DNA of 64,000 nt from Ischnura elegans (Eukaryota > Arthropoda > Insecta > Odonata > Coenagrionidae): the NCBI RefSeq assembly GCF_921293095.1, contig NC_060251.1, positions 38,421,644 through 38,485,643 on the forward strand, written 5' to 3'. Positions within the stretch are counted from its first letter, which is position 1. Each line of letters opens with the position of its first letter. The notes beneath the pieces were generated by a model. It was given only the letters and a program-made list of their open reading frames with translations. It did not search any database and was not told the DNA's origin. The position numbers and the translations under genes are program-made. Of the stretch, positions 15,401-40,300 are shown piece after piece.

Positions 15401-18400
15401 CGGAGAAAGACGAATAATATAAAATAGAGCAATCAAAAGAATTTTACGGTGCGAGTAATTAGGAAATAAAATAGGGTAACATTGGGTTGTTTTTGAGTTG
15501 AAAGACCTTTTGCGAGAACTCCAAATTGGAAATGCTTGCCAATGCTATGCCCAGCAGGGAAGAAACTGTCTACACATTACAAAGCTATACTGCTGGATAT
15601 GTAAGATAGTAATATGTTTTTATTCTTCTATCAGCTCTCATTCAAATCACGAATTGATCGGAGGAGTTTCAAAGGATTTAGCTATTTGAACTTATTGCGA
15701 AAGTCAAGGTTTTGAGAGAGAGGTTGAATTTTCATGCTATTACAAACTTTGATGACTGAAAAGGTGAATAATTTAGTTTTTTGAAGTCAATTAAGAAGAC
15801 TTGAATGTTAAATATACAAGAATTGCCGTGAGAAAAATTCCCTTGGACCGGAATCGAGCCACGGACCTTAGGCTTTCCGGGCCACTGCGCTGTCAACTAC
15901 GCTATCCAGGTTCTGTAATTCCCATGGCAATATTACCGAGGTGTTAGGTTAAGAATGTTAAAGCATACATTTCAATTCGGGTGAAGTAATGGTATACACC
16001 TTAAATTACCGTGCAAAAGTAAATTCAAAATTACCAGTTCTTCTTCAACTGCTTGATACTCTCGGACTTGTGAACTAATGTTGACCTTGGTCCCCTCAAA
16101 ATTAGGGCTAACGTACAAGCAGGAACAGAACACACGACGAATAACTTCGCATGTCAATGAACTTGGAATCCTCGCCGAGATAGTTGGATCTGGAAAATGG
16201 AAATAGTTCTGATGCTGAGCCATCGTTTCAGTGAGTGATCCATGAGGTACAGTGCAAGCCAAAACCAGGAAATATCGTAATTCTTCACAATTGCAAACCA
16301 GGCATGCAGCACTCATCTTAGCCTTCATCAGAAACGCACGCGTTCGCCGGACACAGGCCAAGCTCGCCGGACAACGACACACGGCCAGGCCATAAACTGG
16401 GAGAGTGCTAAGGACACGAACATGCTACCATGCATATAAAACTAAATGTTAGTAATAGAAAAAGGGAAAAGCTAGCTTAGTAAGTGATTCATGTATGAGT
16501 TATAACATATAGAAATTTCATGCATATAGTTAGAAGATATTGGCAAATATAATAAGTTATTTATTAGAGAGTGAATATGCAATGCTTCAAGCGTCTGAAA
16601 AAATATTAACATTCGTGAGATTGCGCAATTCTATTGTTGATAATGACTCAAATCTCTCGTTTTATTAAGATCAAAGATTGTTTAAGACAATGGTATAGTA
16701 GGGGTATTTCTAGTCTTCATCATGGCCTATTAATCTTAGCCTTCATCAGAAACGCATACGTTCGCCGGACAACGACACACGGTCAGGCCATAACCTAGGA
16801 GAGTGCTAAGGACACGAACATGCTACCATGCAAATAAAACTAATTATTAGTAATTGAAAAACGAAAAGCAGGCCTTGTAAGTGATTCATGCATTATCATG
16901 GATATCATATCAAAAGTTCCTATGGATAGTTAGTATGTATTTAAAAAATATAATGAGTTAATAAGTACAGTGGGAAATTGAAAAACTTCAGAAGGTAGGG
17001 GGTAGGTAATTTAAAGCATTTTTTGTCCGCAAATATGGGGCCGAAATTGTTTCTGAGCTATGGCGTTGTAAAAAGTTTTTAGATGCGCTTTGCAGTAACC
17101 ATGAAGAGGTTATTCTTGGTATACAGCCTTTTCGACATTTTACGTAATACTCTGGAATTATAAGAAAATTAAATACTTAAGGTTGAACAAAAATGCGCAT
17201 TTTTAACTGTGTGAAACAAACTTAAAACTGGTGATATTCCTCAATAGTATTCTTGATACTCCCTCTTATCTCTCGCTTAAAGGTTTGATGTTTCAGAAAA
17301 TGGTATAGAAAGGATTTAACAACATAATTTTTTTAAATTTACTGTAGTACTCTTCAAACTCGTTAGAAATTTAAATATTTTGCTCCCGTTATTTTCTGAA
17401 TACACCCCAACGTATTTGTGGAATGAGAAGAAGGATCAAAATGCGGAAAGGATCGTTTTAGGAATTCTTTTTCCCCTGAATAATACCGCTTGTCGTAAAT
17501 GGGATAAAATACCAACTGATGTTAAAAATTGCATATCTGCAAAAATATTTGAACTGAAATATTATAATTTTATAATTTCTTGGGAATAGCATATCTGTTA
17601 AAACATTATTTGCATAGAATAGAAGAAATTTTGAACATTAGCTATCATTATATACATTGATACGTTGCAATATAGCGATTATTCCCCAGTAGAAATGTTT
17701 TTTATTTTCATTTTTACCGGAATAAAATAAATTTATATGTAAAATTTAAGGAACACTTGAAAATAGTATACTAAGAGATATTTCGAGCGCCAAAGGTTTC
17801 TTGAAGTCGGGATAGAGAAAAATGCCCTGGTTATTAACGTACTTATTGGTACAGAAAAAGCCTTTAACTGAATAACCATGATGTCAATAATTTTAACCAC
17901 TTACATGCATAATTTATTAATTTTAAAATTAGATAAGTTAGTGTGTTTCCAAGAATTCATGAAAAGTTACGCCATTGTTATCCCAGTTGAAGGTATGTAA
18001 CTGCCCTCTCCCACTGCGGCAGATAAACGGGAAGATAAAATGTCATTGGAGGCATATAACTAATTTGAAGGTTGACTACTTAAGTTATAATCAATAGTCC
18101 ACCTGGTTTATTATTTCATCCCCCACACCTGGACTTCAGAAAATTAATCGTTCCAGTCCCCCTGCAAAATGTTGTAGGCCTTTGCAAGGACTGCATCATA
18201 ACCATAATTGGAACCAGTCTCACCTAAAATGGACAGCAGGTTCACGTACATTTTGGGCACATGTTTGTACAAGTAGTCCAGCGCCTTTTGTAAGTGAAGA
18301 AAATGCTGTCGTGAGGAGTGCTTCTCTCGATCAAAACAATGATAGGAGCAGAGGTCATTGTGTCCAATAAGAATGGTGAGGAGCTATATGAAAGAAAGTA

Positions 18401-21400
18401 AAGACTTGTTTAGAAATTATCGATAGCTGAAGTCAAGGAAGTTCCCTAACGAAGCAATGAAATGCCATTTTCACTTCTAAAATAGGTATATTTTTCCATT
18501 ATTTGTCCTCAACTAGTGAAAAGAAAAATTTGGCTTAAGATTTACCGAAAATTGTGCTTGATAATTATAATTTTTATGTAAGGTCTTAGGATGATAATGA
18601 TCTGAGCATAAGAAAATCACTGATTATAATTAAAATGCCATTTTGACACTTGCCTGATTTTCAGTTCGTTATGCCAAAAAATAACGCATCATGCCAGTGT
18701 GTTTTGAGTTTCTTATTAACATTTTAATGCTGTAACTGTAGTCAAATAATATTAGTTTCATGAAAATGGCAATTTGTATGCTCAAAAAATCGAAAAAGCA
18801 TACGGTCTGTATTATAATTTTTGAAAGCTGTAAATTTACCAAATTTGCTTGTGTAATATTGGTGGATGCCATAATGGTATAAAAAACTTCTTTCTTAGAA
18901 AATATGCTAAAGGTATTTGCGTTTCACTCAAAATGGAATATTTTTTAGAAAGTTGGACTTTTGCACATTCCTCTCTGCTTAATGGGATTACCTTCCAGTC
19001 ATTGTTGAAGTCAATTCTCTTGTCTCTCTTCATTTTCTTTATCAATAGCCGCACTTGGTTATGAATATCGTCGTCTATCGCACTTGGGATAGCGACGTTT
19101 AGCTGAGCATTATATGACAAAAAATCTCCTCTTCCTTTAGCGAAACCAATCACATTAGGGTTGAAAATCTTAATTAGATTCGGCAGGGTAGTGATTTCAC
19201 GCCATGTTCCGACACCTCCTGTTCGTAATTAAGAGGTAATGCAAATCAATGACGATTAAAATCATTAAAAAATAATCGGTTAAATAAAATGATCAGTTTA
19301 GTTGCCAATACCTTTTTTTGTCTAAAACCTATTAACTAAAGATACATTCAATATATTTGGGTTATGTGATGAGAGGTAGTCTTCGAGTTGAATGAGTTAA
19401 AGATTACTATTCCTGCAAATCTTTCATATCACTGAATCAAAGGCCTTTTTAGTGACTGCTTGCAGTATTTTTTGGATCACCGAATTTTAATTGACGGGCC
19501 ATTGTGAGTATTATTTTTGTCTACCCCGGCTTTTAACTCGTGGTAAATCCATATCCATCTCATATTATTTTAAAATCTAGCATGGTGTTAAGTCCATACT
19601 AAACGGATACGAAAGACGAAGCCGCGCATATAATCTTCTCTGCCGTCACTATACATACAAAGTGTGGAACCTAATTGCTATACGAATATATATAATATTC
19701 TGCAAACTCTAGTGGCATAATTTCGATTTAAATGGAAGTTACACAGGACATTCATATTGACTGCGAAATGGTAAAAGAATTCACGAAAGTCACTCGAAAT
19801 AAGTCTCTCTAGAAGTGGACCAGATGATAACCATCACTCCAGCTCAGTTAAATTTACACTTTCGATCTACACATATTGAAGTTCTCGATTGAATCACCTG
19901 TCCATAGTGCAGCATTTCCAACACGTTAGGCGTGTTCCAATCGGAACATTAACAGGAATGTAGACCAATGTATAGGCGTCATTAAATTGACGACGTGAAA
20001 AAAATCCTTTTATGATGTCACGAGAAGAAAATGAAGGAAGTTGGCTGCAAAACAGAGAGAAATTTATCGACCATTGTTTCCACACTTATGCCATTATCGA
20101 GAAGCCCTTAATTGTTTTTAAGATTCTTGGAGGCTCTATCGTGTGAGAATGATAGTCTGTCGCCATTGAAACGTTTATCTTTCCGCTCTCACCTCCTGTC
20201 ATGGATACGCCTCTGTCCTGAATTATGACACCGAAAGGGTAAATCTCCCTCGCAGAATTCCCCGCGGTCAGTGAGTCACCAATGGCAGCGATGACGTCGA
20301 TATCTCCTGGTCGCAGCTTGTGGACAGTGGTCGGCCGGCTCTCGGATCGCCATCCTGCTCCCTCAGGGTCGACTTCGCAAGGGTGCGGTATCCACGGCGG
20401 TATCCTGTCTTGAATCGGTTCTCTGTAAGGGTTGTTCTGTGGATACCTCAGGTTTCTCGTGTCCTGTTGTTGAAAATAACGGATCTATGAATTCCCGAAT
20501 CCTCGGCTGAAGTATTGATGATTATTAATACCACAATTCAACGATCGGCTTCAGAAATTCAGGCCTCTTTTTGAAACAAAAATATGAATATGTGATGAAA
20601 AAATATGATTATAGAATGCGTAGCAAGGTTTTCGGGTTGACCTCCGCGTCGATGAAACGACGCAGAGGTCAACCCGAAAACCTTGCTACGCATGCTGCAC
20701 CACCCCGCGAAAGTCTCTATCAACGTGATAATAGAATGTAAATCAATCACAATTCAATGGCCGCGTTTGAGAACACCGTTCCCGTGAGTCCATTCACCCA
20801 ACCCGACCAGCTAGTGTACATAGATATCTAAAATACGGTTTCGCAGCGAGTTTCATTAGTATCGGCGGTTTACGGGAAATTCTGCGTATTAAGGCCGTTT
20901 TACACGGGGGATGTACTTGCACAATCGGAGGTGTGTGCGAAGGCCCAAAGAAGATCGTGCCGTGTAAAGCGGTGAATAGGTAGAACATATGCGAGAATAT
21001 TGGATGCGATTGGGCACAATAATCTCTACTATAATTCCAAGCTCGCATTCCCGCAATTTCAACATGTGTTCATTGCTAACCTGCGTGATGCCGTGCTTCG
21101 TGTAAAACTGCCGTTACGCTTTGCCAAGCGAGCTTTTTCGCCTACTAAAGGATGCATCTTCAGGCGATAAAGGGCTATATTCTCATAGATTATAGCCAAG
21201 GCTATCCCATGAGCAGAAAAAAGATGCTAAGTATACAATGTAGTGAACAATCATTACCTGATGCGCCCTGCAATGGCACCGAAAGCTCGCTTGCAAAAGC
21301 GTAATACGCACCTGCTTCCTAAAACCTCCGATACATGCAATTTTAAAAAAATATTGAATTTTTTATGCCTTTATTGCGTTGCCTCAGTAAAATTTTGTTC

Positions 21401-24400
21401 GCATGAAAAAGAAAACTTAAATGTGGGGGTGAGAAGCCAAGTGACTGGAGCGATTTCCTATAACATAAGTGTGTAAAAATATTGTTATTTATTTTAATAT
21501 GGAAAAATTCAATTCCATCGCTCTTAAAACTTCGGATTTTTGTACAAAAACCTTAGCATTTGGCAGTGCTCCGAACTCTCCAAATACAATAAAGAAAATC
21601 CAAAATACGATAAGTTTGGGAGAAACCTTTCCATCAGACGGTATAAAAGAGGAGCTCTGGATTTTTTCCATCGATGCCAAACTTCATCCGTTACTTCACC
21701 TCAACTGAACCGGTTTTCGGCACTGTATAAATCTACCCGCAGACCCTCAGCCTCTTCCGCCGCGGGCTATCCCAAATTTCTGCGCGTGGACTGATCTCCC
21801 CCATCCATAAAATTAAATCCGGTCTCTTCCGGAACCAGAGAGCTTCTCCAACGCCTTCAGTCGCCGTCCAGCGATTAGAGGAAGAAGGCAATCGAGGAAG
21901 ATCAGGGCGAAAGAAGAGTGGACGAAGATGAAGCTTGCTCCGGCGCTAGGGTGTCTGCTTGTCGCGGTGGTTGGTCTTTGCGAGGCTGATAGTTCACTGC
22001 TCCAGAATTGGGAACAGCGCTACTATGACTTCAGTCTGAGGCTTGCCAGGGTTTTGAACGGATCGACGCTGCCGGTAAGTCAGGCATCGTCCATTACACA
22101 TTTTTTCGGAGTTGGCACCGATTTGAAGCACTGCCAGAAGCTAAAGCTCCTTGCACAAAGCGATATTGGACGGCCGGTAAAAAAAATCCGACCGCCATTT
22201 TATCGGTGAAGCGCTGCTTGCACATACACCAGATTTTAACCGATCACATGATCACTTGCTTGGTTTACATGATCAACCGACTTTTATCGCTAAATGTACG
22301 TATTCGGTCAGGGTGCAAGTTCCCATACCCTACCGTTGTCCACTATTTGAATGTGGACGGTCGATATTTTACCGGCCGTCAATAATCGTTGAGTGTGCAA
22401 GGAAACTAAGGTTTGTGGTCTAGTATTGTATAAAAAATAATGACGGTCTTTGGTAAAGCATATGTAAAAATTACGGAGTATTTCCCTAAAAAGTTGGTTG
22501 GACCAAATGATACTTATGATACACACCGCTAATTAATTACAATACTTGAATAGTACTGAACTAAGCGAAATTAAGAAATAAAATCACCAAAAATACTTGA
22601 TAATGATCAATTGGCAAGATACTAGATGGTTTTTAAGGCTTAGAAATTAATTAATTACTGAACTGAGATTTGATTCCCCACACTATTTCAGAGTTTGACA
22701 TCGACGTCTAAACTCAGCTGCATTCTAACACTGACGGGCCCATGGCCTTGTTTGAATACTTAGATTTTTCCCATGATCATGTATTTATATCCATAATGCC
22801 TTAACACTTCCTTTTTGGCTAATTAACACGTAAATCATTTAGTGAGCAACGTAAGAGAATCATGGTGTATTTTTAGAAAACGGATGAATTCGTAAAAGAA
22901 AAATTCATTATTCCGAGCTAGTGTTTAGTGAGCAGTAGTTGAGAGTATAGTGTATGATAGAGAGCCGCGCAGAAAGTCAACTACTTGTTTCATTAAATGA
23001 TGCATTGCAAGTAAATTAATTAAAAAGGCATGATCGCAACAGCATTTCATCGTGCAATTCACAATGACAGCGGAATAAATACCTTTTAGAGGAGTTGCCC
23101 TTCAGGGAAAAGTCCCACCTTGCCTGCTAAATGAGGTCACGGGTTCGAGTCCCGCCATTGTAGGTTGCCCTTATCCAGGGCATGGATGTTCATTATATTT
23201 AATTTCTAACTTGTTGGAGAAACCCCTAGGTAAAGGCTAATATAGTTCTGCTTTCGGAGGTATGGCATTAAAAAAATAAATAGGGGAGGATATATTATTG
23301 GAGAATTCTAGCAAAAACATTTTCCGAAGATTGAGGCGCCAGTCATTGCTAGGATGTCGTTTTTAGACAGATGCTGTCCTTATTGATGCGCTGTCTGCGA
23401 CTTAAGATGTCTCTGGTGTCCCACGAAACACTAAGCTGATAACTTAACATCATTTTAATCTTTTAAGCTTCTTGGCGACACTAAATTTCAGGACTTCTCA
23501 AATTCGAAAATGTGAATATTTTCTACTCTTCCATAATTATTGTGGCAGCGACATATTTCGTCATTAAACTGTACTGCACAAAAGTACACGTGCCTTAAAT
23601 ATTTCCTGAATAGAGGTGAGAATGCATACATTTTTGATGTCACTTAAGAGGCAATATTGGGTTAACATTACTAGGAAAATATTTAATTTGGTAGTAATGT
23701 TAACTCTCTTGGTGAAAAATTACAAAATAAAATATTGAGAGTAATTCCTATCATTTTTCCCTAACAGGAACTCACAGCAAGCGCTTACGATCCCAGTGAA
23801 TGGTGGAAGATCCTCCAGGACAGAATCCCTGAGGACATTAAATTTCCCTGTCATTACACCGAAGATAAACCCGTGTGGAGATCTCGCAGTTCTCCGGCAA
23901 GCGTTCACCAACTCCGACCGGGAGATATCGATGTGATTATGACTCTGGGGGATTCCATATCAGCTGCGGCAGCGGCCAGAGAACCAGCACCCCTTGGATT
24001 CTTCACCGACCACAGAGGAGTTTCCTTCGTTGGAGGTGAGAAAATAAAACAGTGGGTGTGGGCTCCTTGGACTCTTTACACTTGGGACACTACAGTCCCG
24101 TAGGACACTGACTTTGCATAGGGATTAAATGGATGCCGAAGAAGCATTTAGGATAGGAAGTAAATGGTGCTGCCAATACTTCGGCTTCAGCCACAGTACC
24201 TTCTTCGATATATTGGCACTAAAGCCTATGAGTGATATAAATAATTTTTCGCGTTAAATTTAGCATTTTTTCATGATAATTATTCAATATTTAGAAAATG
24301 TTATCTATCGCATTCGCCTTTCATATAAAAGTAGTGATGACGATGGATGGGTACGGGATATTTAGTACATGGTAGTGACATAAGTTAAGGATCAGTGTCT

Positions 24401-27400
24401 CACTCAAATGCAGACCCATTTTGTATCACTTTCACGACCAAAATTTCTAGCATGAGCTTTCTCCTTTGTGTTACATAGGTATCTTTGAATAAAAAAACTT
24501 CAAACAGACTTTGTAGTTATCTGTCGGACTATGTATCTGTAGTTATAATTAATACTAAGGTCAAATGACGGATTCATAGTCGCCCACTGATTTTCACACC
24601 TCATCCATCCAACTTCTTTCACTTCTTTATGATGACTTCTCTTCATATGTTCATGAAATTCTCTCAAGCTTTTTTTTCAAGTCTAAAAAAATATTCTTAA
24701 ACTACATTGGAAACTATTCATTCGATGTTACCTTTCATTTTGTTCTCTACTTAATTTACATCACCCCTAGTTTGCATAGAAATTATAGAAAGGAAAATGA
24801 CAGTAAAAATTAGTGGGAGCAGTAAGTGTGCTTGATGGTTTTAGCATATTCTGGCGAGACCTTACTTCTATTCAATTTTTCATAGATCATAAATTAATGG
24901 GCTCCACGACGATTTTCCTTATCCTACTCCTTGGTAAAATCCCTTGTTTGTTATAGACCCCACTTTCTTTATATACAATATATCTCAGGCACCTTTCTTC
25001 AATACCAGATGCCACTACTAGGTATTATTCTCCTCTGATCACCTTTTCCTACGGATCTGAAACGACGATAAATTACTCTATACGTCGACAATTGCCGAAC
25101 TTCGGCTGCGTCAAGGTACGGGGTAACGTTCTGCATGGGAAGAACGGATTTCAGAGAACTTTATCTCATTTAAGATGAGAGATACGCCAAAAAAAACAAA
25201 TGTTCGGCCACAAAAATCCATCCGCTAGGTATTTCGTATAACTTTTTCAGTTGTTGGTCGCTATTTATTATGAATTGACGTATCGTAATGTTTTATTACG
25301 TTTTATTATAATTGTAACATCAGCTTTTTAAACATGTTTAAACCAAAGGCAGTTCGCCCAAATTGGTACATATTTTCAATCTCAACACATCTACCCAGGT
25401 ACCTATGTCGTTCCTCTAAAATTCTCCGGTACGCAACGTGTTCAGTCAAAACTTTTATCCAATCAATTTGTACCTATCAATAAGCCTAAGGATGGCGCAA
25501 TTGTGTATTATTTAGCTTGGACGAGAGGAAAAAGAAAAGACTTCATAGTTAAACTGGCTAAAGCACTGGACCGGAAATCGGAGGATTCGGGTTCGAATCT
25601 CGGTCAAGGTGAATGAATTTTTCTCTGCGGATTTTTCAAACAATTTGCGCATTACGGGTGACTCCGTTACGTTTTCACCGTGGCCAGTCCCGGTGTACTT
25701 AAATTAGTCAGGAGCGAAAACGTCTTTGTGTTCAAAGTTCGGGCTTTGCACTCCGGCTGTGGCGCTGTGCGCACGATTTCAACCTCTCGTGGCATCATAC
25801 GCTCAGCAGTCCATATCACCTTGTCATGTATAGTCCTCAAATTTCTGCAGGGGAGAATGACGCCTCGGTAGCTAAACTGGCTAAAGCATTCGAATCCCGT
25901 TCAAGGTGAAGGAATTTTTCTCTGTGGATTTTTCGCACAATTTGTGAATTGCGGGTGATTTCGTGAAGTTATCACCGTGGCTAGTCCCGGTATACTTAAA
26001 TTATTCATAGATATGAAAAACCGAAATTTCGTGCTAGAAGGCAGATCGTTAACATTATACACATATCAATCCTTCTTTTTGCCTACATAACCTCAAAACG
26101 GTATCACGAGGAAGAATGGTGCTTTATCCCGAAGAGTAAATTTTTCCCAAGTCAATCGAGTGGACAATTTTAACGGATCTGTACAAAGGAAAACTACTTA
26201 AATAACAACATAGCCGTCTAGAAAACGCCTGACTTTAAGGCCACACTTTCCACCATAAAGACACGGGCTCTCTAGAACATTGGGGATGGATTTACCCTTC
26301 AACATTAAACTAGAATTGGCAGGAAAATATACAAATTTCAGTAAACTGTTCCATGTCAAGTATTTATTTGAAAAATTAAGGTGATAATAACTGATACGTA
26401 CAATATTTATTACTTAAAAATCTATTATTAACAATATATCTGTCTATTGAGGTACTTATCAACGCTCCAATTCATGAATAAAATGCTCAAAAATTTCCAT
26501 AGTTGATAAAACTAGCAATCGTAATTCTATGAATATGAATGAATAGTGCAGGACTTTAAGCGCCACAAGTTAGGGTGGAAGAATAAAAAATAAATAGAAA
26601 TTTTAGTCGTAAAAGTGATATGCCTACAATGAATCTGCTACTTAAACTTATGACATTGCAGTACACGAAATGTCCCGGACCAATCACTCGTCATTACTTC
26701 TCTTTAGGTAGATAATTATTTTAAAATATTTCCTTGAATCTTGAAAGCAAAATAAAATTCAAGATGAAAAACTATTTCTATTCCTAATGGTTAGCGCTCG
26801 AGTACCAATAAATCCTAATAAACAGTTTATCATGTACCACGATGTTTTGGGGAGTGCATGACTTGTAGCAATTCTTGTTGACGACGTGAGGGAAATATGA
26901 GAGCCGTGTGAAAATGTACAGCCATTCCTGTTGACTACGCCGAACTAGCAAATGAGAGTGCTGTAATGAAAATAGTGGGGTTCGGTTGTACGTGTCGTCG
27001 CTTCCGATGTTTCGCCCTAAGTACATATTAATTGTTTTCGCAATGAGTGTGTATTTTGATTTGAGAAGTTAGGTATGAGTCGTCGCTCCTGAGTCTCTTC
27101 GTGAGTACTTTTCCTGGACAATTAAATTTGCAAGTTTTGTCACTTTGATTTGTGAAATAACAGTGCGTGTCGTCGATATCGATTATATATCTGAGTAATA
27201 ACTCGATCGATTATAAACATCGATTATATATCTGAGTAATAACTCAGATATATAATCGATAACGTAATCGGTAACGTTTCTATTTTCCGGTTCTAAAGCA
27301 GAATTTTAGTCGCAAATGAAGTTGCATGAAAAAAGCGCTATTTCGTGAGTCTAACAGTCTCATAAGAAAATTCCAACTCGAAAAGACTTTGGTCCTACCG

Positions 27401-30400
27401 GAAGTGTGACTCCGCGCAGGCAATTCATTTTATTCATAATCCTCTCATCACATCATTTATTCAAATTTTTTCTCAATTTAGCAACCGAAAATATTAACAG
27501 TGCAATAATTTATACTGGGAAATACTCAATTTTGAAGATGATACATTAGTTTTTACATGAAACTTTGTGAAATAAATATATATTCAAATGTTTTCGCTTT
27601 TTCAGGAGGTGAAAAAACTTGGAGAGAATACACTACTCTACCAAACATCTTAAAAGAATTTAATTCTGATTTATACGGCTACGCAACTGGAAAAGGCACT
27701 TTTTTCTCCAAATCTGCCCAACTCAATGTAGCTATTTCTGGATCCACTGATAACGATATACTCGCTCAGGCTATGTATTTGTACAATAAAAGTGCGGAAG
27801 ATCCTAAAGTCAACATGGAAGAGGATTGGAAGGTGACCATATAAAAGCATATTATATGTTTGTAACAATGTCAATCTCCGAAACAACTCAAAATAATAAA
27901 TTATTCACTTTTTTCCTACAGCTAATAAACATATTAATAGGTCAGAATAATATATGCTCATATTATTGCACTGATCCAGTCGGAAATTCACCGGATGCAC
28001 ATAAAACCCGTCTCCAAGAGGTTTTGGACTTCATCCAGGAAAAATTTCCAAGGACGTTTGTAAATCTCATTTCAATAGTAGGTATGTCCTCATAAGAGAG
28101 AAAAAGTGATACCTACTTGGAGCCGTGCATGATGCAACTGAAAATTTCGTATCAGTAATAAATGAGTCGATAATCAAAGAGGATAATGTAATTTTTTCAA
28201 CAGATACAACTCTCACCGCAAGATATCCGGGGTCAAGAGCCTGCGAAATTCTAAGACCAGTCACCTGCCCATGTTTGCTAGTGATACCTGATCTAGAGGA
28301 TAATATAGCAAAAATATCAGCTGTCGTCAGAGAATATCAGAAGAAAGAGGAAGAGCTGGTATTACACTATTTGCGTATTATTAATATCAGTAAAGTAACT
28401 AGAATTATGCTTTGGGGGATGGGGGAATTTGGGGGGGCGAAATCCCCCTTTAGGAGGGAGGAGGGGGAGGGACAGAAGTTGGCATGCCTGGATGTAAATT
28501 TTGCATCATTTTGGCGATTAAAATTTGGGTTTCACTCAAAATTCCGCGGGATATTTTCGCAACTGTGAAAACAGTATAATTTCGATACAGGAAAAAATTG
28601 TTTTTTTTTAATATCTCTGTGGCTTTGTAGCGGATTTATACCCCTTATTCCCCCCCATAGTTACGCCACTGATTAATATAGAAAATTTACTCTCAACGAG
28701 GATTTCAATGGCATAACCAAGATACGGGGTCTTCAACTTATACGCGGGTTATTCCACGCTACTCCAAGCATGAGTTCGCACAATCGGTTTTTATGAAAAA
28801 AAGGTGTAAATGTTTGGTTTATCAAAGGAGACATAATATTGGTAGATATAGTCGGCCGATTGAATATTTACATTCCATATATTGCATCTTTGAGAATATA
28901 AAGCTCAATTCCCCCGTATTCTATTTAAATTTACTAGCAGTAAAAGAGATAATCGAAATCATAATAAGACGGAGGAACTCAACTGACAGAATAAGCCATG
29001 ATGAACAAAATCTCTGAAGTTTTCATCAATATCTTATGGTACCTTGCATGCGTTACCATGTGCAGAAATATTTCTTGCATTTATTCCGACTCAAAACTAT
29101 CTTTTCATCCACTAAGGAACGTGACACCTCTAATGAGAAATACTACAAAATGAGACAATTTTGTTGCAATTAATTTTTAATTCACTGAATCGAGTTGAAA
29201 CTAAAAATGATTGATTTGCAGGCATCTGATGACCGCTACAAGAATAAAGAGGACTTTACTGTGGTTTGGCAGCCATTTTTCTTGTCAACTAATGCACCAT
29301 TGACGAGGGGAGCGCCAGAGACTCGAGTATTCTCCAAAGTGTTCACACCCACTTTGCCAATTTTGACTGCGGATTGTTTTCATCTCAACCAGCGAGGCTC
29401 AGCATTAGGTAAGACATTATTTTAGCAAGCTAGATATCATCAGCTTATTTGATGTCGTTATATGCTCATATAGTTCTCAATAAGTGTAAGAATCAACCTC
29501 ATTACGATGACTGCAGAGGTACATTCATCTTAGTTACTAAGCTATTCTTAGGAACTGGAAAATGAGTGGTAAACTGAACAAGGAAATGAATTTTTCGCAA
29601 AGAGATTTAAAAAAATCATTTACCCAAGCTCTGTGAATAATTTCACTCATATCTAGACTTTGCAGTGCTCTTTGAGTTCTTAAAGTGAATATGCCATAGA
29701 CGCTACCTGTATCCCTGTCCCGTAGCAAGTATTCCAAGAATCGTCAACGGAAGAAATTATATAATTATTGATTACTTTTAATTAATGTTGTGGTTTTGTT
29801 CTTCCGTTGACTCTCAAATGTCGCTATCGAGGGGTTAGGTGGAAGAGGGGACTTAGTCTCAACCTCGCCCGAATAAAGGCATATTATTATTATTGTATGT
29901 CCACTTATATTTGTTGCATCTTTATATACACGCAAAAAATAATTCAGCACCCTTCTAATCCAATGACATTCGGAAATAATAGCAACAAAATCTAAGAATG
30001 ATCAATAGTATAGTGCGCAGCTTTAATAAAAACTTGAAGTTCCAATTACTATTGATATCTATCAGGTTTCAAAAAACCACATTACTGACCATGATATATG
30101 CGCTGTTCTCTTACTAGTAGCGCTTTCAAGGCACTGATGACGAGTTTAATCAAATACCCCATCACAAATTTTTGCATTATCAAGCTATATACCTATAAGC
30201 TAATAACTTGCACAGTGGAAACATTCCTCATTTCCTCAAACTCTATATCTAGGATCCCAAAATAATAGGTATCTAAAGAGTGAGACGTTACCTTTTAGAT
30301 GTATAACTGAATAACAGAAATTTTATTTTCATTTGCAGTGGCACGAATTCTTTGGAATAATATGCTGGAGCCAGTGGGAAATAAAACCATGACACTGGAA

Positions 30401-33400
30401 GATATCTTCTTCCAAGGCATCAAATGTCCAACCAAGAAAAATCCCTATCTATTCACAGAAAAAAATTCGGAGACTTACCATAAACACTGTCACCAATGAG
30501 ACCCATCGAATCATATCCCCAAGCATGAGAGTCGAAGGTGAATGCTAGCAAAGATTTCTAAGTGCGTCGACAATCTAAGGATAACAATCAAAATTTGACA
30601 ACAATTTACGATAGCACAGTGAATGAGAAGTGAACTTGGAGTATAAAAAACAAAACATAGCAGATATATAAAAAAAAGTTGGCCATTGAACTACACTTAA
30701 AACTGCTTGTTCTGTAACCGTTAATGAAAACTATAACAAGATCCAATTGCTCAAAGCCAATTTAATAAAAGGTATCCAAAAATTTACCAAGACTAAGTTA
30801 TTAGAGATGCATATATGTATAATACTGAAAACTCTTTAAAAAGTTGGCATGAACTACTTTGGAATAAAACAACATTATGGTTCCTTCAAAATGGTAAGAA
30901 CTGTCCTATCAGAATGGCGTAACTAGGAATATGCTTTGGGGGGATGAGGGAGAGTGAGTGAGGGCTACCCCCCCTGGAAACGCGGAGTTAAGGAAATGTT
31001 TTGAAAATTAACATGCCTGAAAATGCATTTTACATCATTTTGGCACTTACAATTTAACTTTAAGCAGATGAAGTTATTATGTATCAAATCCAGAAAATAT
31101 TTTTAAATAATTTTTTTATCTCTCTGAGGCTTGGGGGGGGGGGGGGGGCTCATCCCCATAGGTATGCCACTGTCCTAACAGACGGCTCAGAAAGCTGTCC
31201 CAATGCCATTAAATATGATATAGCATTGTAGATCCTTTACCTCATATGCATTTTCTCTTTACCTCGAGAATTCTCAAAGATAAGATTTTTCCTTCATACA
31301 TTAATAGTCAAACGTCAAATGAGAATGCTTTTTTGAAAACTCTCTATATTTCTCTACTAATTCTGTACCCATAAAACGGGTATGCTTACTCCACCACTAT
31401 TACCATGTGGAAAGCATTTAACCATCGATTACGGATGCGGAGTGGTCAATTCTGTTGTTTCAGGGGGACAAAAATAAGACAATAAAGTAGCATTGAAGAG
31501 GAAGATTTCAGATTCGAGCCACCGGTCTCACTCCTTTATCTCAGCGCCCTTGTCTTTTTTCGCGACCTATTTATTTCGGGATGGAGTGACTTCTAAGCCG
31601 GACGCGAACGGTGTTCGTCCGCGCCTATGTGAACAGAGGCGACCGCTCCCCGCGCCCCGCGCGCGTAGCGCGAACCGTCCGCGTCAAGTTGAAACGGCCC
31701 TAAGAAGTACGGAAGTAAAATGAATAGAATAAAATGAAGGGCTTAGGGCTTCAATTAGGGCTAAAAATACAAACTTAGGGCTTAAATTTTGAAATCTTGC
31801 ACACAACAGGTGAGTTCAATCGCTATGTGCTATCAAATAACCATCGATTTCAGTTCACATCGATTTTTGATTTGACGCATAAAAAGCACGAGGCTTTTGC
31901 AGGAAAAAATAATTGGTTCACTGCAATCTTTGGTTACTTGAATGTGAAGCAGTGACGGTAGATAATTGTCAATGATTAAAGGTATTAAGAGATACATTTT
32001 AGAACGACTCCCTTTTTTTCATCGGCTAATCACAAGAAATGGTAATGTCAAAAGAAATCTTATCCAGTTTAGTCGGTCGTATGTTTCGGCCAACAAAAGA
32101 TTTTATGATGATCATTCAGAACGTGATTATGTGCTTAAAGCTAGTGTTTGATCGAGTGTTAATCTACCAATAGCCTTATTGTTTTCGGTTCAGGAAATCT
32201 TAAAGTGGTTCACCGTTCTGAAAAAAACGGTGCATTTTCTATGCACCGGTTTGAGAAAACAGTATGCTCTGGCCGGTCTATTGATTCTGTACAATCTCGG
32301 TACACCGGCTCAATAGACCGATACGGTTTTTATTTATGAACCAATTATTTTCTACTAAAGCTTTTTTTCTACTGCACCTTTATTTAGCAAGGTCCTTAGT
32401 TATATTTAATTCAGGAGAAATTATCGGAAAATATATAATTTGTGAATAATTTGCTCTGTGTTATCCGCAGAAAGAGGATCTTGATCCTATCATCGCCTAT
32501 TTCCACATTTCACTCGTGCAGAGAGAAATGGCATTCCCCCTTCACCCACAGTGGCCAAAGTGCCACAGATTTTTTGCGTTCAATGAGCAGTGGCTGAGTT
32601 CTCCCTTTGGGCAAATAAAAATTCGACATCTAGCTCATTCATTTCCGACAGGCGCTAGCCCCGCACGTAAAAGCGAATGCCTCTACGGAGGCAGCGCGGA
32701 GGGCTACTGAGCCGAGCGGGCGAAAAGAATGCTTAACACCAAAGGAAGGGATAAAGCAGCTTTTTGAGGTATGTTACTGTATCGAATTCTTTAAGTTAGC
32801 TGTAGACTACTCGTGAATCAACCACGTCATATCGTTCCACAATTATTTCCTTCCGTTTACCAGTTTACCTGAACAAAACGTGGGAATAACAAACTGCAGG
32901 CGATAAGGGAATGTTTTGAAGAAAAATATGGAAAACATAATGCCTAGATATCGGCTGAAAATCAACAAAAAAAGACAAGGGTACTAATGTGCATCAAAAG
33001 AGAGGAAGATAGGATAAACATAAAACTCGGTAAACTAAAAGCTTGAAGAAATGAAAGAGTTTTGTTACTAAGGAAGCCGATTAACCAACGACGCCAAAAG
33101 CAAGAAGAAAGAAAGATATTCTCGTACAAAGAGAAGAATCTACTCACAGCTACAAATACAAGCATACAAGTAAGGAAGCAACGTAACAGTTGCCACATAT
33201 GGAACATTTTTGTGTATGGGTGCGAGGTTTAGAAATTGACAGGTGCAGAAAGGTCAAGGGAGGAAGCATTCTAAATGTGGTACCTCCGAGAATGATGAAG
33301 ATTAAATGGATCGAACGAGTACGTAATGAGAGGAAAGAGAAGCCTTCTAAAAACCCTATGAATAACTTTGTCGGCCACATCAAGATGCACGATAGTCCGA

Positions 33401-34494
33401 TGAAGATATTCGTCGAATAACGGTAACGAACGGGAAGAAGAGAGAGGTCTCGTCACGTCCCATTAGTGCATAGCGTCCGATACATTGCGTATTTAATTTT
33501 TTTTCTGGGTTCCAGTTGACTTGCGCTACATTTTAATACTGTATTAAGTTCAAATGAATGTCTGTCTTCACCCCTCCCGCTAATATTTTTGTTGACTCAT
33601 TGAATTTATCGACTGGAGAAGTATTTTTGTGAGACATGGCACACGGGCGATATATCGGACGCTATGCACTAATGGGTTAATTAAATAAGACGGATAATCA
33701 AGGATATATGAGTGAGTTAGAAACCAAGGAGTACAAGTGATTTTTGTTTCCAAACAGAATTATATACAGAAATTAGCTAGAGAAAACAAAACGTGAAAAC
33801 TAGATACTTAGTAGTGCATTTGATTTTTCACACAATGTCAGCACAGAACAGAGACTCGCTCGTATCCCTTGGCTACCAAGTTTTTGTATACATCTTCTAT
33901 CAATTTCTGTACCTCACTCTGGTTGGAAAATAATTCACTGGTACCCCTTGGCTTCTCACCCCCTCAAATCTAGTAACTTGGCATAGATAATAATCATTTG
34001 ATAAAGTTATAAAATTGCAGATTGATGCATATTTTTACCAAACTGGTATTATATTAGCTCTTTAATTTTTTTAAGTTTTTATATGAATTAATATTCGCTG
34101 TTGTATATAATTATTCCTATTTAAATTTTTAAGGCAAAAAATATTTTCATTGGGTGAATGGAAAAGATAATTTATCCTTTAAAATTTCTGAATAATACGG
34201 AACTAGGGAAAAGTGATTGCCAAAGGATGGTGGCGTAAAGCATTTGGGGGCCTGTTCTTTGTGCACTTGTCCTGGACATCTTCTCTAAATAGCCTTTGGA
34301 GTAAATGACATTGGGTTTGGAGATTTGCTTGCCTCAATTATCTGTGAAAATAGGTCCGGAGTGGGCTTCGCCACGGATGAAGAATATTGGTCCCCTTCCA
34401 CTACCTCAGCGTAGCCAAAGACAATGGCGAGGAGCAGGCACATTGCTCGAAACAAAGTATTTTGCAAAAATGAACCTTCATTGTCTTCATCCAT
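12295..34494 (-). CDS. PLB1-like secreted GDSL lipase, gene 2, interrupted by nested gene 3
   Basis: Proposed structure: complement(12295..12455, 12747..12933, 16035..16189, 18224..18383, 18992..19218, 20193..20463, 34333..34494), 1323 bases, 440 residues plus stop. Motifs: signal peptide in exon 1, IGDSLTAG (Ser118), GHND (Asn229), and ECFH (Glu376, His379) where the family has DCFH. The C-terminus ends EGYQ with no membrane anchor. No exon 1 lies between exon 2 (20463) and gene 3. The only candidate is at 34494-34333, leaving a 13.9 kb intron 1 that holds the whole of gene 3 in antisense orientation. Unit 2 sequence stops at about 21424 and resumes at about 33964 at the same point of the ancestral intron, which argues for one split gene. 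Its exon 1 donor is GC rather than GT. Whether the long intron is still spliced is unknown. Confidence 0.8.
12747..12933 (-). CDS. PLB1-like gene 2, exon 6 (block V)
   Basis: 187 bases. TLSGRYEGREDFAVTFQPF, then WTKECFHLNQRG. The histidine of the catalytic DxxH block is kept but Asp is replaced by Glu. Acceptor ATTAAAG, donor ACAG|GTAATT. Confidence 0.87.
13171..14149. mobile_element. Long-TIR element in intron 5 of gene 2
   Basis: Left CAGGTTGGAGAAATGTTGTG and right CTCCAACCT; the inner inverted arms TCGAAAACGCACCATTTTTA (from 13573) and its complement (14047-14066) are perfect. A shared orthologous copy in unit 4 (44237-45146) has GTGGAGGAAATTTGTG on the left and CAATTTTTCTCCACCCTG on the right, so the insertion predates the duplication. 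About 320 bases at 13220-13540 are inserted in the left arm of this copy. Confidence 0.55.
14290..15088. mobile_element. pogo/Tigger-like nonautonomous DNA transposon
   Basis: Left CAGTGGAACTTGGTTAATTC, right GAATTATTCAGGTTCCACGG (inverted match), flanked by TA on each side (14288-14289 and 15089-15090). Repeated TCGAATTA motifs inside are typical of pogo ends. No transposase seen. Absent from the aligned position in unit 4 (about 45298). Confidence 0.75.
15813..15952 (-). repeat. tRNA-derived SINE with 10-base target duplication
   Basis: Flanked by GAATGTTAAA at 15803-15812 and 15953-15962. The aligned sites in unit 1 (about 280) and unit 4 (about 46220) are empty. Contains the minus-strand tRNA-like head. 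In intron 5 of gene 2, so it inserted after the duplication. Confidence 0.75.
16035..16189 (-). CDS. PLB1-like gene 2, exon 5
   Basis: 155 bases, DPTISARIPSSLTCEVI to AVEEEL. Nearly identical to exon 5 of gene 1. Acceptor TTTTCCAG, donor CTG|GTAATT. Confidence 0.85.
16313..16895. repeat. Direct repeat in intron 4 of gene 2
   Basis: 16313-16495 is repeated at 16735-16895 (CTTAGCCTTCATCAGAAACG onward). Units 1 and 4 have a single copy, so this is a local duplication in unit 2. Confidence 0.6.
16964..17240. repeat. Dispersed repeat, unit 2 copy
   Basis: Shares CAGAAGGTAGGGGGTAGGTA-type start and the GGTTATTCTTGGTATACAGCC stretch (split here to limit length) with 46856-47150. The unit 4 copy begins CAGGGTGTTTCAGGAGGG, which looks like a DNA-transposon end. 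Absent from unit 1. Confidence 0.4.
17380..17589 (+). pseudogene. Possible LINE 3' coding remnant
   Basis: A 69-codon open frame with YLWNEKKD and CRKWDKIPTDVKNCISAKIF resembles the C-terminal W.SLP..I...S...F end of non-LTR reverse transcriptases. The aligned stretch in unit 1 (1080-1290) has stops. Weak assignment. Confidence 0.3.
18224..18383 (-). CDS. PLB1-like gene 2, exon 4 (GHND block)
   Basis: 160 bases beginning LLTILIGHNDLCSYHC, ending VNLLSIL. Acceptor TCATATAG, donor TTTTAG|GTGAGA. Confidence 0.85.
18992..19218 (-). CDS. PLB1-like gene 2, exon 3
   Basis: 227 bases, GVGTWREITTLPNLIKIFNP to NNDWK. Acceptor GAACAG, donor AAG|GTAATC. The open frame runs past the donor into the intron, but the paralogs fix the border. 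Confidence 0.87.
20193..20463 (-). CDS. PLB1-like gene 2, exon 2 (catalytic Ser)
   Basis: 271 bases, DTRNLRYPQNNPYREPIQDR, VIAAIGDSLTAG and RGVSMTGG. Acceptor CAACAACAG, donor GGAG|GTGAGA. Frame fully open. Confidence 0.9.
20616..20693. repeat. Near-perfect 36-base-arm hairpin in intron 1 of gene 2
   Basis: Arms 20616-20651 and 20658-20693, one mismatch, six-base loop ATGAAA. It lies in an insertion (about 20620-20726) flanked by GATTATAGAATG and GATAATAGAATG, and absent from the aligned introns of genes 1 and 4. Confidence 0.8.
20889..21116. mobile_element. MITE with TTAAGGCC termini, copy 2
   Basis: Left TTAAGGCCGTTTTACACGGG, right CGTGTAAAACTGCCGTTA, in intron 1 of gene 2. Same family as 4761-5126, with one internal module. 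Confidence 0.6.
21642..21649 (+). promoter_or_regulatory. Candidate TATA box of gene 3
   Basis: TATAAAAG, 279 bases before the gene 3 start codon. A second candidate TATAAAT lies at 21726-21732. Either would give a leader of roughly 170-255 bases. Judged from sequence only. Confidence 0.35.
21928..22074 (+). CDS. PLB1-like gene 3, exon 1 (signal peptide)
   Basis: 49 codons from ATG at 21928, signal peptide then SSLLQNWEQRYYDFSLRLAR, ending at CTGCCG|GTAAGT. It lies in a locally GC- and CpG-richer stretch than the rest of the gene. Confidence 0.9.
21928..30499 (+). CDS. PLB1-like secreted GDSL lipase, gene 3 (complete, nested in gene 2)
   Basis: Join(21928..22074, 23768..24035, 27606..27832, 27922..28081, 28204..28358, 29222..29408, 30339..30499): 1305 bases, 434 residues plus TGA. 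All borders are GT-AG and the phases match the other paralogs. Residues 1-20 are a typical signal peptide (MKLAPALGCLLVAVVGLCEA). TLGDSIS gives the nucleophile Ser112. Block III reads GQNN (221-224) instead of GxND. DCFH gives Asp370 and His373. The protein ends CHQ, without the C-terminal membrane segment of vertebrate PLB1 and with only one lipase domain. It is clearly more diverged than genes 1, 2 and 4 are from each other, and its introns and flanks are not homologous to theirs. It lies on the opposite strand inside intron 1 of gene 2. Expected role: extracellular or gut lumen phospholipid or glycerolipid hydrolysis. Confidence 0.92.
23085..23283 (+). repeat. tRNA-derived SINE, second family, in intron 1 of gene 3
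   Basis: B-box GGTTCGAGTCC at 23142-23152, then TCCAGGGCATGGATGTTCAT and an A-rich end ATTAAAAAAATAAATA. Same family as the minus copy near 52870-53080. Confidence 0.6.
23768..24035 (+). CDS. PLB1-like gene 3, exon 2 (catalytic Ser)
   Basis: 268 bases, three fewer than in the paralogs. DPSEWWKILQDRIP, then LRPGDIDVIMTLGDSIS and RGVSFVGG. Acceptor CCCTAACAG, donor GGAG|GTGAGA. Confidence 0.92.
25544..26008 (+). repeat. Pair of tRNA-derived SINE copies in direct order
   Basis: Copy 1 at 25544-25706 with TAAACTGGCTAAAGCACTGG and B-box GGTTCGAATCT (25590-25600). Copy 2 at 25862-26008 lacks about 20 bases before TTCGAATCCCG. Both continue into CACCGTGGC.AGTCCCGGT.TACTTAAAT. Confidence 0.6.
27178..27260. 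repeat. AT-rich palindrome with direct repeat
   Basis: ATCGATTATATATCTGAGT (27219-27237) pairs perfectly with 27242-27260 across a four-base loop. The left arm plus centre is also repeated directly 41 bases upstream (27178-27204). Confidence 0.75.
27606..27832 (+). CDS. PLB1-like gene 3, exon 3
   Basis: 227 bases, GEKTWREYTTLPNILKEFN to MEEDWK. Acceptor CTTTTTCAG, donor AAG|GTGACC. Confidence 0.92.
27922..28081 (+). CDS. PLB1-like gene 3, exon 4 (GQNN block)
   Basis: 160 bases, LINILIGQNNICSYYC to FVNLISIV. The usual GxND motif reads GQNN. Acceptor TTCCTACAG, donor GTAG|GTATGT. Intron 3 before it is only 89 bases. Confidence 0.9.
28204..28358 (+). CDS. PLB1-like gene 3, exon 5
   Basis: 155 bases, DTTLTARYPGSRACEILRP to YQKKEEEL. 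Acceptor TTCAACAG, donor CTG|GTATTA. The open frame continues beyond the donor into the intron and a MITE; that is not coding. Confidence 0.9.
28388..28671. mobile_element. hAT-type MITE in intron 5 of gene 3
   Basis: 284 bases, flanked by an exact 8-base duplication ATTAATAT (28380-28387, 28672-28679). Ends CAGTAAAGTAACTA and TAGTTACGCCACTG. G-rich left and C-rich right interiors (CTTTGGGGGATGGGGG). Confidence 0.8.
29222..29408 (+). CDS. PLB1-like gene 3, exon 6 (Asp/His of the triad)
   Basis: 187 bases, ASDDRYKNKEDFTVVWQPF, then LTADCFHLNQRG holding Asp370 and His373. Acceptor GATTTGCAG, donor TTAG|GTAAGA. Confidence 0.92.
30339..30499 (+). CDS. PLB1-like gene 3, exon 7 and stop
   Basis: 161 bases, VARILWNNMLEPVGNKTMTL through ENPYLFTEK-type C-terminal region to HKHCHQ and TGA at 30497-30499. 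Acceptor CATTTGCAG. Confidence 0.9.
30764..30769 (+). terminator. Candidate polyadenylation signal, gene 3
   Basis: First AATAAA downstream of the gene 3 stop, 265 bases after TGA. Confidence 0.4.
30912..31172. mobile_element. hAT-type MITE downstream of gene 3
   Basis: Same family as 28388-28671: AATGGCGTAACTAGGAATAT at left, GGTATGCCACTG at right, with a near-exact target duplication TCCTATCA/TCCTAACA. Contains a run of 16 G (31133-31148). Confidence 0.7.
31173..33458. other. Spacer downstream of gene 3, inside the insertion
   Basis: No supported gene. 31560-31700 is GC-rich (CCGCGCCCCGCGCGCGTAGC). A possible MITE has inverted 15-base ends AAAATAATTGGTTCA at 31906-31920 and 32337-32351. 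Confidence 0.4.
33459..33676. mobile_element. 218-base MITE with 24-base perfect inverted ends
   Basis: Ends CCCATTAGTGCATAGCGTCC and its complement. The right flank is TTAA and the CCC end recalls piggyBac, but the left flank (ACGT) does not match, so the superfamily is uncertain. Confidence 0.65.
33709..33974. mobile_element. Foldback MITE at the right border of the insertion
   Basis: Arms of about 70 bases: left GAGTTAGAAACCAAGGAGTA (33713 on), right in reverse complement GGGTGAGAAGCCAAGGGGTA. Its outer end is the terminus that also stands at 21425-21441. Confidence 0.55.
34333..34494 (-). CDS. PLB1-like gene 2, exon 1 (signal peptide), displaced by the insertion
   Basis: 162 bases, 54 codons: MDEDNEGSFLQNTLFRAMC, then LLLAIVFGYAEVVEGD and finally FSQIIE. 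Clear homolog of exon 1 of genes 1 (6955-7116) and 4 (58500-58661), including the flanks. The donor is GAG|GCAAGC, so a GC-AG intron. No other exon 2 lies nearby on this strand; the next one downstream is 20193-20463. Confidence 0.7.
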
Positions 34495-37300: not shown

Positions 37301-40300
37301 CTGCTTCCTGCATCGACCAATTGGATGTGCCCGAATGTACTATGCACTGACCTGCCTAACTGTTCAATCCATCATGCGTCTTCATAGCTAGCCTATGTGC
37401 TTCTTTCTACTGTATCTGCTGCAGACTGTGAACGAGAAAAGATCTTATCCCGAGTTTATTTAAATAATCACCTCCCACTTTGAATAGTTTCATCTTTATA
37501 TGGTAGACTTATTCACGCATTATTTCGCACGTGACCTATGCTAGGTGAGTAAAGTCACGTGTTGAGTATTCAGGTGTTCAGAGACCGCTGATAACTTCGC
37601 AGTTTCTAACTGAACGTTTACAAATTAGTACGCGTCTTTTGGCATCCTGAGTGAAATCATCTTTGGGCAGAGCACTTGCCGTTTCAGTATCTATCTTATC
37701 CGTTGAGTTATCCTTATCCGTGATCATTGACACTTGCAGAGAAGTACGAGGTCACGCTTAGGTACACACATCGAAGGAATATGCCGCTTTGCTATGAGAG
37801 AAAAACCTTGAATGCATGAAGCGAATAAAGCGATACATTCGACAAGGATTTCTGAGAGAAGTGCCGTATTTAGCTGTCTTTTTAAGTAATTTTTTTTAAA
37901 TAAAGTAAATTAAATTTTTCAAGATTTTATAATAAAGAATTATCTTCAGTTAATGCATTGTTTGAATTAATTAAAAATTATTTAAGAAGATAATTTTTTA
38001 AAAAAGAAACATTTATTTAAAGTAAAAGTATTGCATGTAAATTTAGTAAGCGCGAGTCTAGGGTAACCACGAGGTGTCCCGAAATAATTTTGAATCTAAA
38101 AAAGATTCTGCAGAATTATGGAGACAAAATAAATCGCTTTCCCAATATCCTCTAAATTTATTTTAACTTCAACCAAAACGTCCGAGTGGACTACCGTAAT
38201 AAGGTCAGTACAGCTTTGTATCTTTTGGGCGTGAGGAGGTAGGTGGATACAAAACAAATTCTTTTCGCATAAGTTATTGAGGCTAAAATTCAAAATCCGG
38301 TTGGCACAGAATTATTTGATTCTTATATTTTAAGTTTGTACTTCTTCCAGGAATTAGAGTCGAATGTAGCGCCATTTACTTTCTACTTAGGCAATTTGCA
38401 ATTATTTAGAGAATTTAAATGATGTAAAATAAAAATTATAATGTACTCTAGAATAACGTAACGGTGGATTCGTATCCTACGCTACTGAATAAAGTTGCGA
38501 AAAAGTGCCATCTCTCAATTATGAAGCCACGCTTAATCTTGTTCGTACATTTTTTCATTAAAATTTAGAGTTCATCCTGTTAAAGTTGCCATGGTATTTT
38601 TCTGTTTATTTTTGGATTGCGCTTAAGCGTACCCGGCAGGGGGCAGGAGGGGGCAGCTGACCCCCTTTGAAGCTATAGTACATCTAGTTCAAAAGAAATT
38701 TTTGAAAAAAATTCTTGAAATCCTTGAAAAGTGATAATGGTATTAAACATCTAATTATGGTTAAAATATTTTTTGCGAGCAAATGCTTTAAAAAAACAAT
38801 AAATCGCTGTCATAATTTTCTTGAAACTTTGGTTTAATAACTTTTTCTTTGTTACAGCTTGAACGACCACGGCTTGCCCCCCTTTAACTTTGATCCTGGG
38901 ATTGCAAAAAAATTCTGGAACAAAGATTTAATTTATTGTTGCCTAAGGAACAGAGCTCATTTTCCGCAATCAATTGTATGCTTTATGGAAATTTTTTTAT
39001 AGAGAAATAATTTTTTTTTCCTTTCTATGCACAAAATCCTTCCCTTTGCACTGGTGTTGAGTCTGTATTTGTGAATAAAACGGAATCGATAGTAGCTGCG
39101 ACCTTCGTGACGTCTGTTATAGCGGCACCGAGTTAAGACTATTCCAATTCCAGAGCTGCCCGCAATCGATTCTCTTGACCATGTATCGCTTGCCTTAACG
39201 AGACATATATCCTTAAATGTCGGTGGAAGTATCCTTTCGAAAGAGTTGAAAACGTTCTCCTGAAGTCAAAACTCTCTCCTGCGACGGGTTTCTTTGACTT
39301 CTCGACTAACCTGAAAAATATTTATCATGAAGTATTGACGGATGAAAAACGCGGGGGTAAAGGTTGAGTAAATCATTATAAAGGTATGAGCCATTCAAGA
39401 TAGCTTTAAACGGAGCATTTCGTCCATCAACCCGGCCTGGTGTTTATCTCATGATATTTATTGCACGAGGAATGGCGATGTGGTTCCAAAGATCGCACTG
39501 GCGAGTCCGGTCGCGGCGCAGCCGCAGCGAGTTTACCATCACCCCTAGGCGGCGAAGCCGTAGCCCAGGGAGGGACTGTTAATCCGTTCTCAGGAACATG
39601 CCTGCGATGCTAGCCAGGGAGGGCGCTGCCTATTCCCCCCTGACTTTGCGGGGAGTTTGGGGGCGAGGATACGAGTAACGGCGAAGTCGTTCCGAGGAGA
39701 ATGCCGCGTTAGGCGTTAACCTTTCCCCCTGGCTACTCTTGTGCTAAAATTTATTTACTTTCAAAAACCAGAATCCTTGCCCCAAGGCCCCTAGGTACTT
39801 GGTACTCAAAATTGAATTTTTTGGGCTGTAAAAACTATTCCGATTAGAAATATGCGAGTATGGACCGTAGGGGCCGAAATTTCGTTTATTTTGGCGTATA
39901 TGTCCGAAAATTCGTTGTTGCAGTTGTCGAATATATGTGCGAGAGGAGAGCTCCGAGACAACCTTAAAGCGCTGTTAAAATCCTCGAAATTCGCAAAACT
40001 GTCTTAACCTCCCTGACCGTGATCTACTACTGGTAAGTAACCCACCAGCCTCCCGACCAAACCGTCGCATTTGTCCCTGTCCTATATCCGCCACTGTCCC
40101 TAGTGTATAGAGTCCACGCAGTCCATACCCTCCGTTATATTCGCTTACCTCCGACGAAGGCGATTCCTCTGTGGTCGGTGAAGAATCCAAGGGGTGCTAG
40201 TTCCCTGGCCGATGCCGCAGCTGATAGGGAATCACCCAGAATCATAATCACATCGGTTAACTCCCCGTCAGAGTTGGTAGACGCTCGCGTGAGACCTGCG

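Follow-up and report, generated by a model that had tools for sequence, protein, structure and literature searches.

How does a complete gene come to lie antisense in an intron of another gene of its own family? The origin of a nested gene is often hard to read, and two GDSL-lipase genes of Ischnura elegans raise this question. We analyzed a window, the whole 64,000-nucleotide stretch G000:C6:38421644-38485643, and searched the genome of 1.72 Gb in 110 contigs. The window contains a tandem family of these lipase genes, with genes 1, 2 and 4 on the minus strand and gene 3 on the plus strand.

Gene 2 is the host. Its predicted exons lie on the minus strand at 34333-34494 (exon 1, with a GC donor), 20193-20463 (exon 2), 18992-19218 (exon 3), 18224-18383 (exon 4), 16035-16189 (exon 5), 12747-12933 (exon 6) and 12295-12455 (exon 7 with the stop). 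The preliminary description had noticed an in-phase exon 1 for this gene at 34494-34333, and it indeed joins exon 2, starting at 20463, in phase and gives an intact predicted ORF. By these predicted exons, gene 2 must splice across an intron of 13,869 bp (13.9 kb). An 84-bp palindrome, 90% self-complementary, is found at 20613-20696 in the same intron.

Gene 3 is the guest. Its predicted exons lie on the plus strand at 21928-22074 (exon 1 with the start codon), 23768-24035 (exon 2 with the GDS motif), 27606-27832 (exon 3), 27922-28081 (exon 4), 28204-28358 (exon 5), 29222-29408 (exon 6) and 30339-30499 (exon 7 with the stop). A complete gene antisense in intron 1 of its paralog had been proposed here, and the seven predicted exons with their intact frame bear this out. 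The predicted exons span 21928-30499, entirely within intron 1 of gene 2 (20464-34332) and on the opposite strand. The antisense overlap had been put at 8.6 kb, and its length is right at 8572 bp (8.57 kb), but the overlap sits in the intron of gene 2. Interference between the two genes, proposed earlier together with double-stranded RNA, is possible in principle.

Two more members of the family are found left of the window. Gene 0, closely related to gene 3, occupies -17138 to -28499 in window coordinates on the minus strand, within the 50 kb added on each side. Gene -1 lies on the minus strand at -73083 to -85599 in window coordinates, about 93 kb from gene 3 and its surroundings. On the other side, 11 exon peptides had no match in the 50 kb that follow the window on its right. 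Between genes 2 and 4, a decayed gene-3-type exon 2 with adjoining intron stands on the minus strand at 40095-40304, 84% identical to 23881-24089. A tRNA match (RF00005, 38.3 bits) is found upstream of gene 1 at 7998-8070 on the plus strand.

All six genes (-1, 0, 1, 2, 3 and 4) have seven predicted exons and an intact frame of 1302-1329 nt including the stop. Their predicted introns are GT-AG, except for intron 1 of genes 2 and 4. There the GC donor AG/GCAAGC is found at 34332 (gene 2) and 58499 (gene 4), and gene 1 has GT. The two proteins run against PF00657 of Pfam score 61.7 bits (gene 3) and 48.5 bits (gene 2) at a gathering cut-off of 23.6. No relative of gene 3 appears in PDB at E 0.001.

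The gene 3 protein is 88.9% identical to that of gene -1, 83.4% to that of gene 0 and 45.6-46.1% to those of genes 1, 2 and 4. Judged by these identities, the lipase family is of two old classes, and genes 2 and 3 are distant paralogs at 46% amino acid identity. Hence, the wording that gene 3 sits in its own paralog is valid for the distant class only, its close paralogs lying left of the window. The dS is 0.140 between genes 3 and -1, 0.198 between genes 0 and 3, 0.160 between genes 1 and 2 and 0.216 between genes 2 and 4, and it is saturated between genes 2 and 3. A deep branch of the six-gene tree is very long, and we leave this tree out of our branching-order arguments.

We reject a pseudogene reading of gene 3 on its intact predicted ORF and splice sites. 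Its omega against gene -1 is 0.37. The gene 3 lineage has 14.5 nonsynonymous to 15 synonymous changes at a site ratio of 3.45, some of which may predate the insertion. The gene -1 lineage has 26 to 8, with little sign of constraint.

In the chained alignment of genes 3 and -1, 159 indels fall in 8964 noncoding aligned bases (17.7 per kb) and none in 1118 coding bases; exon 6 is outside the chain and has a one-codon difference. At half the divergence, a neutrally evolving gene 3 would be predicted to have gathered about 7.9 frameshifts and 4.6 stops, and the probability of none is 0.0004 and 0.01, respectively. With the intact frame, the low omega and the lack of coding indels, gene 3 is probably functional.

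How the gene was placed there is recorded at the borders. A block with the outer limits 21423 and 33965 (12.5 kb) breaks intron 1 of gene 2; it had been described at 21425..33963, and the block is real with its limits shifted to these positions. The left joint reads GAAAACTTAAAT to 21422 and then GTGGGGGTGAGAAGCCAAG at 21423-21441 on the plus strand, a 19-bp stub of a MITE terminal inverted repeat joined directly to the upstream DNA of a paralog. The right joint reads CTTGGCTTCTCACCCCCTC at 33947-33965 and then AAATCTAGTAACTTGG from 33966.

The preliminary description had units 1, 2 and 4 continuous at the same ancestral point. This is confirmed, since unit 2 is homologous to the others on both sides of the block and its flanks directly adjoin there. 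The left flank (to about 21420) and the right flank (from 33963) of unit 2 abut in unit 1 at 5753-6241 and then 6237-6386, and in unit 4 at 58011-57974 and then 57980-57831. The empty sites in intron 1 are thus 6237-6241 on the plus strand in unit 1, with a second copy of the piece having its site at about 5578, and 57974-57980 on the minus strand in unit 4. In unit 4, the intron sequence that surrounds the empty site is inverted (57762-58014), and in unit 1 it is present twice (5499-6384).

AAAT stands outside both block ends, read directly at 21419-21422 and 33966-33969. The inverted unit 4 is uninterrupted with GAAAACTTAAATCTAAGCATTTG, and the two uninterrupted unit 1 copies have diverged at the target. 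From the border sequences and the uninterrupted unit 4, AAAT is doubled around the block but single in unit 4, as expected for a target-site duplication. Scanning the join length, a 4-bp duplication is the best for unit 4 though narrowly (42 versus 41 for 7 bp), and for both unit 1 copies 4 bp ties with 6 bp.

Because of the empty sites in units 1 and 4 and the AAAT on both outer sides, it is supported that the MITE-bounded block, with its whole and apparently intact gene, entered the intron after the units had duplicated. The opposite order would have gene 3 ancestral in the intron and lost from units 1 and 4. We found nothing in favor of this order, and it faces the uninterrupted targets in both units, the matching flanks on both sides of a MITE next to gene -1 and a dS between genes 3 and -1 (0.140) that is not above that between units 1 and 2 (0.160), as point values. 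On the empty sites we reject it as extremely improbable.

The border elements belong to a repeat family. The 17-mer GGGGGTGAGAAGCCAAG is exact at 21425-21441 on the plus strand and 33947-33963 on the minus strand, and has no other site in the window with up to 3 mismatches allowed. Genome-wide, 271 and 278 exact copies (549) were found on the two strands with 0 and 0 for the reversed control. Thus, the 17-mer is the end of a repeat family, and its pairing here by chance is ruled out. The 17-base ends had been claimed at both borders, and they are inverted and exact, although the right one is the tip of a full MITE of 256 bp and the left one belongs to the 19-bp stub.

The complete MITE lies at 33710-33965 on the plus strand with arms of about 69 bp at 78% identity, and one 60-aa stop-to-stop frame overlaps it. 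The family is of high copy number, with 3556 first-look candidates (the best 40 scored) besides the 549 exact ends. Its target duplication is 4 bp, perfect in 19 of the 40 copies with usable flanks, and in none of them at 3 or 5 bp. This set of 40 includes the window copy, itself matching at 3 of 4 positions, and excludes L022 for too little flank.

Among 100 of the 549 end places, three plus-then-minus pairs of MITE size were picked out by eye. Further plus-then-minus pairs are 1.1 kb (L022) and 46 kb apart, the latter at G000:C2:115595618-115642073 and possibly due to chance. L022 (394-1533) is a member of this MITE family that is interrupted near position 49 by an insert of about 890 bp. 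We therefore reject it as a second gene-carrying block. The insert matched only itself and a 34-bp stretch among the sequences compared.

The two joints differ in homology. The left one has 0-3 bp, and the right one is inside MITE sequence that is common to gene -1. The stub does not continue as a MITE beyond 21441, where the bases are the gene's own upstream region, also common to gene -1. Extended by the next five block bases, the stub occurs exactly only once in the genome, here in the window. When up to 3 mismatches are allowed, it matches 29 places versus 2 for the reversed control. Several of these near-matches read GCCAAGTGATT and would represent MITE variants, so a 3-bp TGA microhomology at the left joint is possible, if a resident MITE had that end.

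Where did the block come from? A genome search with the block start (the best 40 of 50 candidates) returned the block itself, gene 0, gene -1, one rearranged fragment and short repeats. A search with the 3′ flank (the best 40 of 2550) returned gene -1 and a 500-bp repeat, and the unique part of the flank was matched by gene -1 alone. A rearranged gene-3-type upstream fragment, L009, lies at -45405..-45759 in window coordinates and has no exon match nearby.

The gene -1 locus (G000:C6:38331644-38351643) is on the strand opposite to the block. The block is largely collinear with it over 21442-33709 on the plus strand, and the chain of 11 pieces covers 10335 of 12544 bp with 84.8% identity in noncoding DNA. 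The upstream homology of gene -1 begins right after the stub at 21442 and is 79.6% over 21442-21598. Within the block, a 218-bp stretch with 30-bp inverted ends (33459-33676) is absent from gene -1. Gene -1 itself has a second, partial exon 5 (L061/L062; -82084..-82236 and -83252..-83386 in window coordinates).

Gene -1 carries a MITE at the same site as the right MITE of the block. It has ATAT on both sides (AAGGATATAT) and unrelated sequence beyond, and the block's right MITE has the same ATAT on its inner side (33706-33709) and AAAT on its outer side. The same site and inner flank tie this MITE to the surroundings of gene -1, and the block stops exactly at the outer end of the MITE. At the left-border position, no MITE end is found in gene -1 or gene 0, the two paralogs that keep the upstream region.

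By these alignments, gene -1 is the nearest surviving relative of the donor. Judging from the anatomy of the insert, gene 3 probably retains its own upstream region and is read independently. An assembly error at one or both borders is another conceivable explanation. However, a matching duplication with element ends at both joints is unlike a misjoin, as is the noncoding divergence of about 15% from gene -1, and we give such an error hardly any credence.

The preliminary description likened the block to a composite transposon. In composite transposons, inverted ends enclose a block that bears genes, and the target is duplicated around it. The gene 3 block shares its position between inverted ends, those of one MITE family, with a single AAAT duplication outside and a whole gene inside. 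It differs in that its left end is a 19-bp stub and no two-ended donor was found. What lacks support is the movement as one unit.

In that scheme, a block with an upstream MITE end and a full downstream MITE is moved in one step by the transposase of the family. The inverted outer ends, the perfect AAAT outside and the ATAT inside all fit the use of the outer ends, and a cut-and-paste move needs no surviving donor. Against it, the left MITE has only 19 bp, gene -1 and gene 0 lack a MITE end there and one more copy is needed, in which a MITE was acquired and truncated. The block's MITE is also not a sister to that of gene -1 in the whole-element test described below. No donor or other site with the same bounded block was found among the best 40 of 50 matches to the block start or the best 40 of 2550 to the 3′ flank. 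With the left stub and the absence of the left end in gene -1 and gene 0, the composite transposon is rejected as a full account, and the one-step transposition appears unlikely.

We think, with moderate confidence, that a break at a MITE resident in gene 2 was mended with a copy of the gene -1 locus, reached through MITE-MITE homology, and that the left side was closed by end joining. A type B MITE would first have inserted at AAAT in unit 2. The site of this resident MITE would then have been broken, perhaps at its excision. The right broken end, with MITE sequence retained, would have entered the MITE next to gene -1 (or its ancestor) by strand invasion.

Copying would then run inward through the whole gene for about 12.3 kb, and on the left, end joining would attach the new strand to what was left of the resident MITE, the 19-bp stub. 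The outcome would be gene 3 antisense in the gene 2 intron with its own upstream region kept. We infer the break, the strand invasion at the gene -1 MITE, the copying of about 12.3 kb and the joining to the stub; the insertion, its boundaries, the duplication, the donor-like paralog and the intact predicted genes are what the locus itself displays.

If the resident MITE took part, the block's MITE need not be the sister of the gene -1 MITE. We sampled 46 MITE copies, 41 of full length, and typed them by an indel motif into 22 of type A and 17 of type B, with the window and gene -1 copies kept apart from the typing. The sample leans to one side, as 29 of the 39 typed comparison copies are best matches to the window MITE. 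Of 10 markers, the window MITE has seven of type B, one of type A (33713) and two of neither type; the gene -1 MITE has four of type A, four of type B and two of neither.

Five of the 10 markers differ in the direction of the repair model, namely 33800, 33900, a one-base gap, 33906 and 33909. At these, the window MITE is B and the gene -1 MITE is A (three) or neither (two). The two MITEs match at 203 of 254 bases, which ranks 28th of 40 copies, and at 41 of the first 48 aligned bases, which ranks 8th. A tree that pairs the two as sisters is rejected over the whole element (AU p 0.0045, 40 rows, L022 excluded) and is not rejected over the left half (p 0.31) or the right half (p 0.17) alone.

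A switch from gene -1-like to B-like sequence is placed best after 33715, but its gain over all-B is only 2.6 log units, so no internal breakpoint is demonstrated. The lnL totals of the pure models mix unlike models, uniform divergence versus site profile, so we rely on the markers instead. Position 4 of the stub is G, as in 65% of type B left ends, versus T in 91% of type A; the reversed right end also has G, so this base says little on the type.

The non-sister relation and the five differing markers are expected if the block's MITE recombined with a different, resident MITE. We hold at a moderate level that a resident B-type MITE in unit 2 recombined with, or replaced, the MITE of gene -1. 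The level is moderate because the copies are biased to best matches, the breakpoint is not demonstrated and the MITE of gene -1, being B at 4 of 10 markers, may itself be the converted one.

In an alternative kind of repair, a gene -1-like fragment would enter at or inside the resident MITE by template switching or end joining, and no MITE-MITE homology step would take place. The left joint suits it with little or no homology, or 3 bp (TGA) with a GCCAAGTGATT end. Its right joint, lying exactly at the MITE end, would then be a coincidence, and we consider this repair distinctly unlikely. The repair through MITE-MITE homology has its own difficulty in that the published copies made in this way are far shorter.

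Such copies are described for human synthesis-dependent strand annealing, with maxima of 619 bp for donors within 5 kb and 3424 bp for donors farther away (PMC2671141). There too, sequence from elsewhere is copied into a break and interrupts a transposable element; the gene 3 block is different in being about 12.3 kb long and carrying a whole gene from a donor about 93 kb off with a putative MITE anchor. In rice, fillers of 1-123 bp are reported at excised DNA transposons (PMC4423477). They are alike in that a break at a DNA-transposon site is filled with foreign sequence, and the gene 3 block is far longer than such fillers.

Opposite-strand nesting of protein-coding genes is exemplified by ceh-10 in polq-1 of C. 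elegans, where 566 further pairs are counted, with several hundred in many animals, and where nested genes of this layout can induce their hosts (statements of PMC12274878). Like ceh-10 as presented there, gene 3 is complete, on the opposite strand and in a host intron. Unlike that pair, genes 3 and 2 are of one family, and the joints, the empty sites and the donor-like copy are visible.

For plants, Wicker et al. (2010) reportedly described gap patching, in which genes travel as filler when breaks near transposable elements are repaired. Among the open-licence papers screened, none reports MITE-anchored repair as the way in which a gene came to lie within its paralog. Nesting on the opposite strand and copying into a break under repair are both already known. 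The case of gene 3 is longer than the known repair copies and carries a whole gene, but belongs with them in kind. It illustrates gene nesting clearly and does not represent a new kind of system.

With an empty site, a target duplication, element remnants and a donor-like copy in one tandem family, this route of nesting can be tested step by step. A wider role is possible, if doubtful: the high-copy MITEs may serve as homology anchors for break repair that copies whole multi-exon genes into MITE sites, building antisense nested pairs without gene transposition, here with both members under selection. If such MITE-anchored repair is common, genes would change place and strand whole, with their introns and upstream region included.
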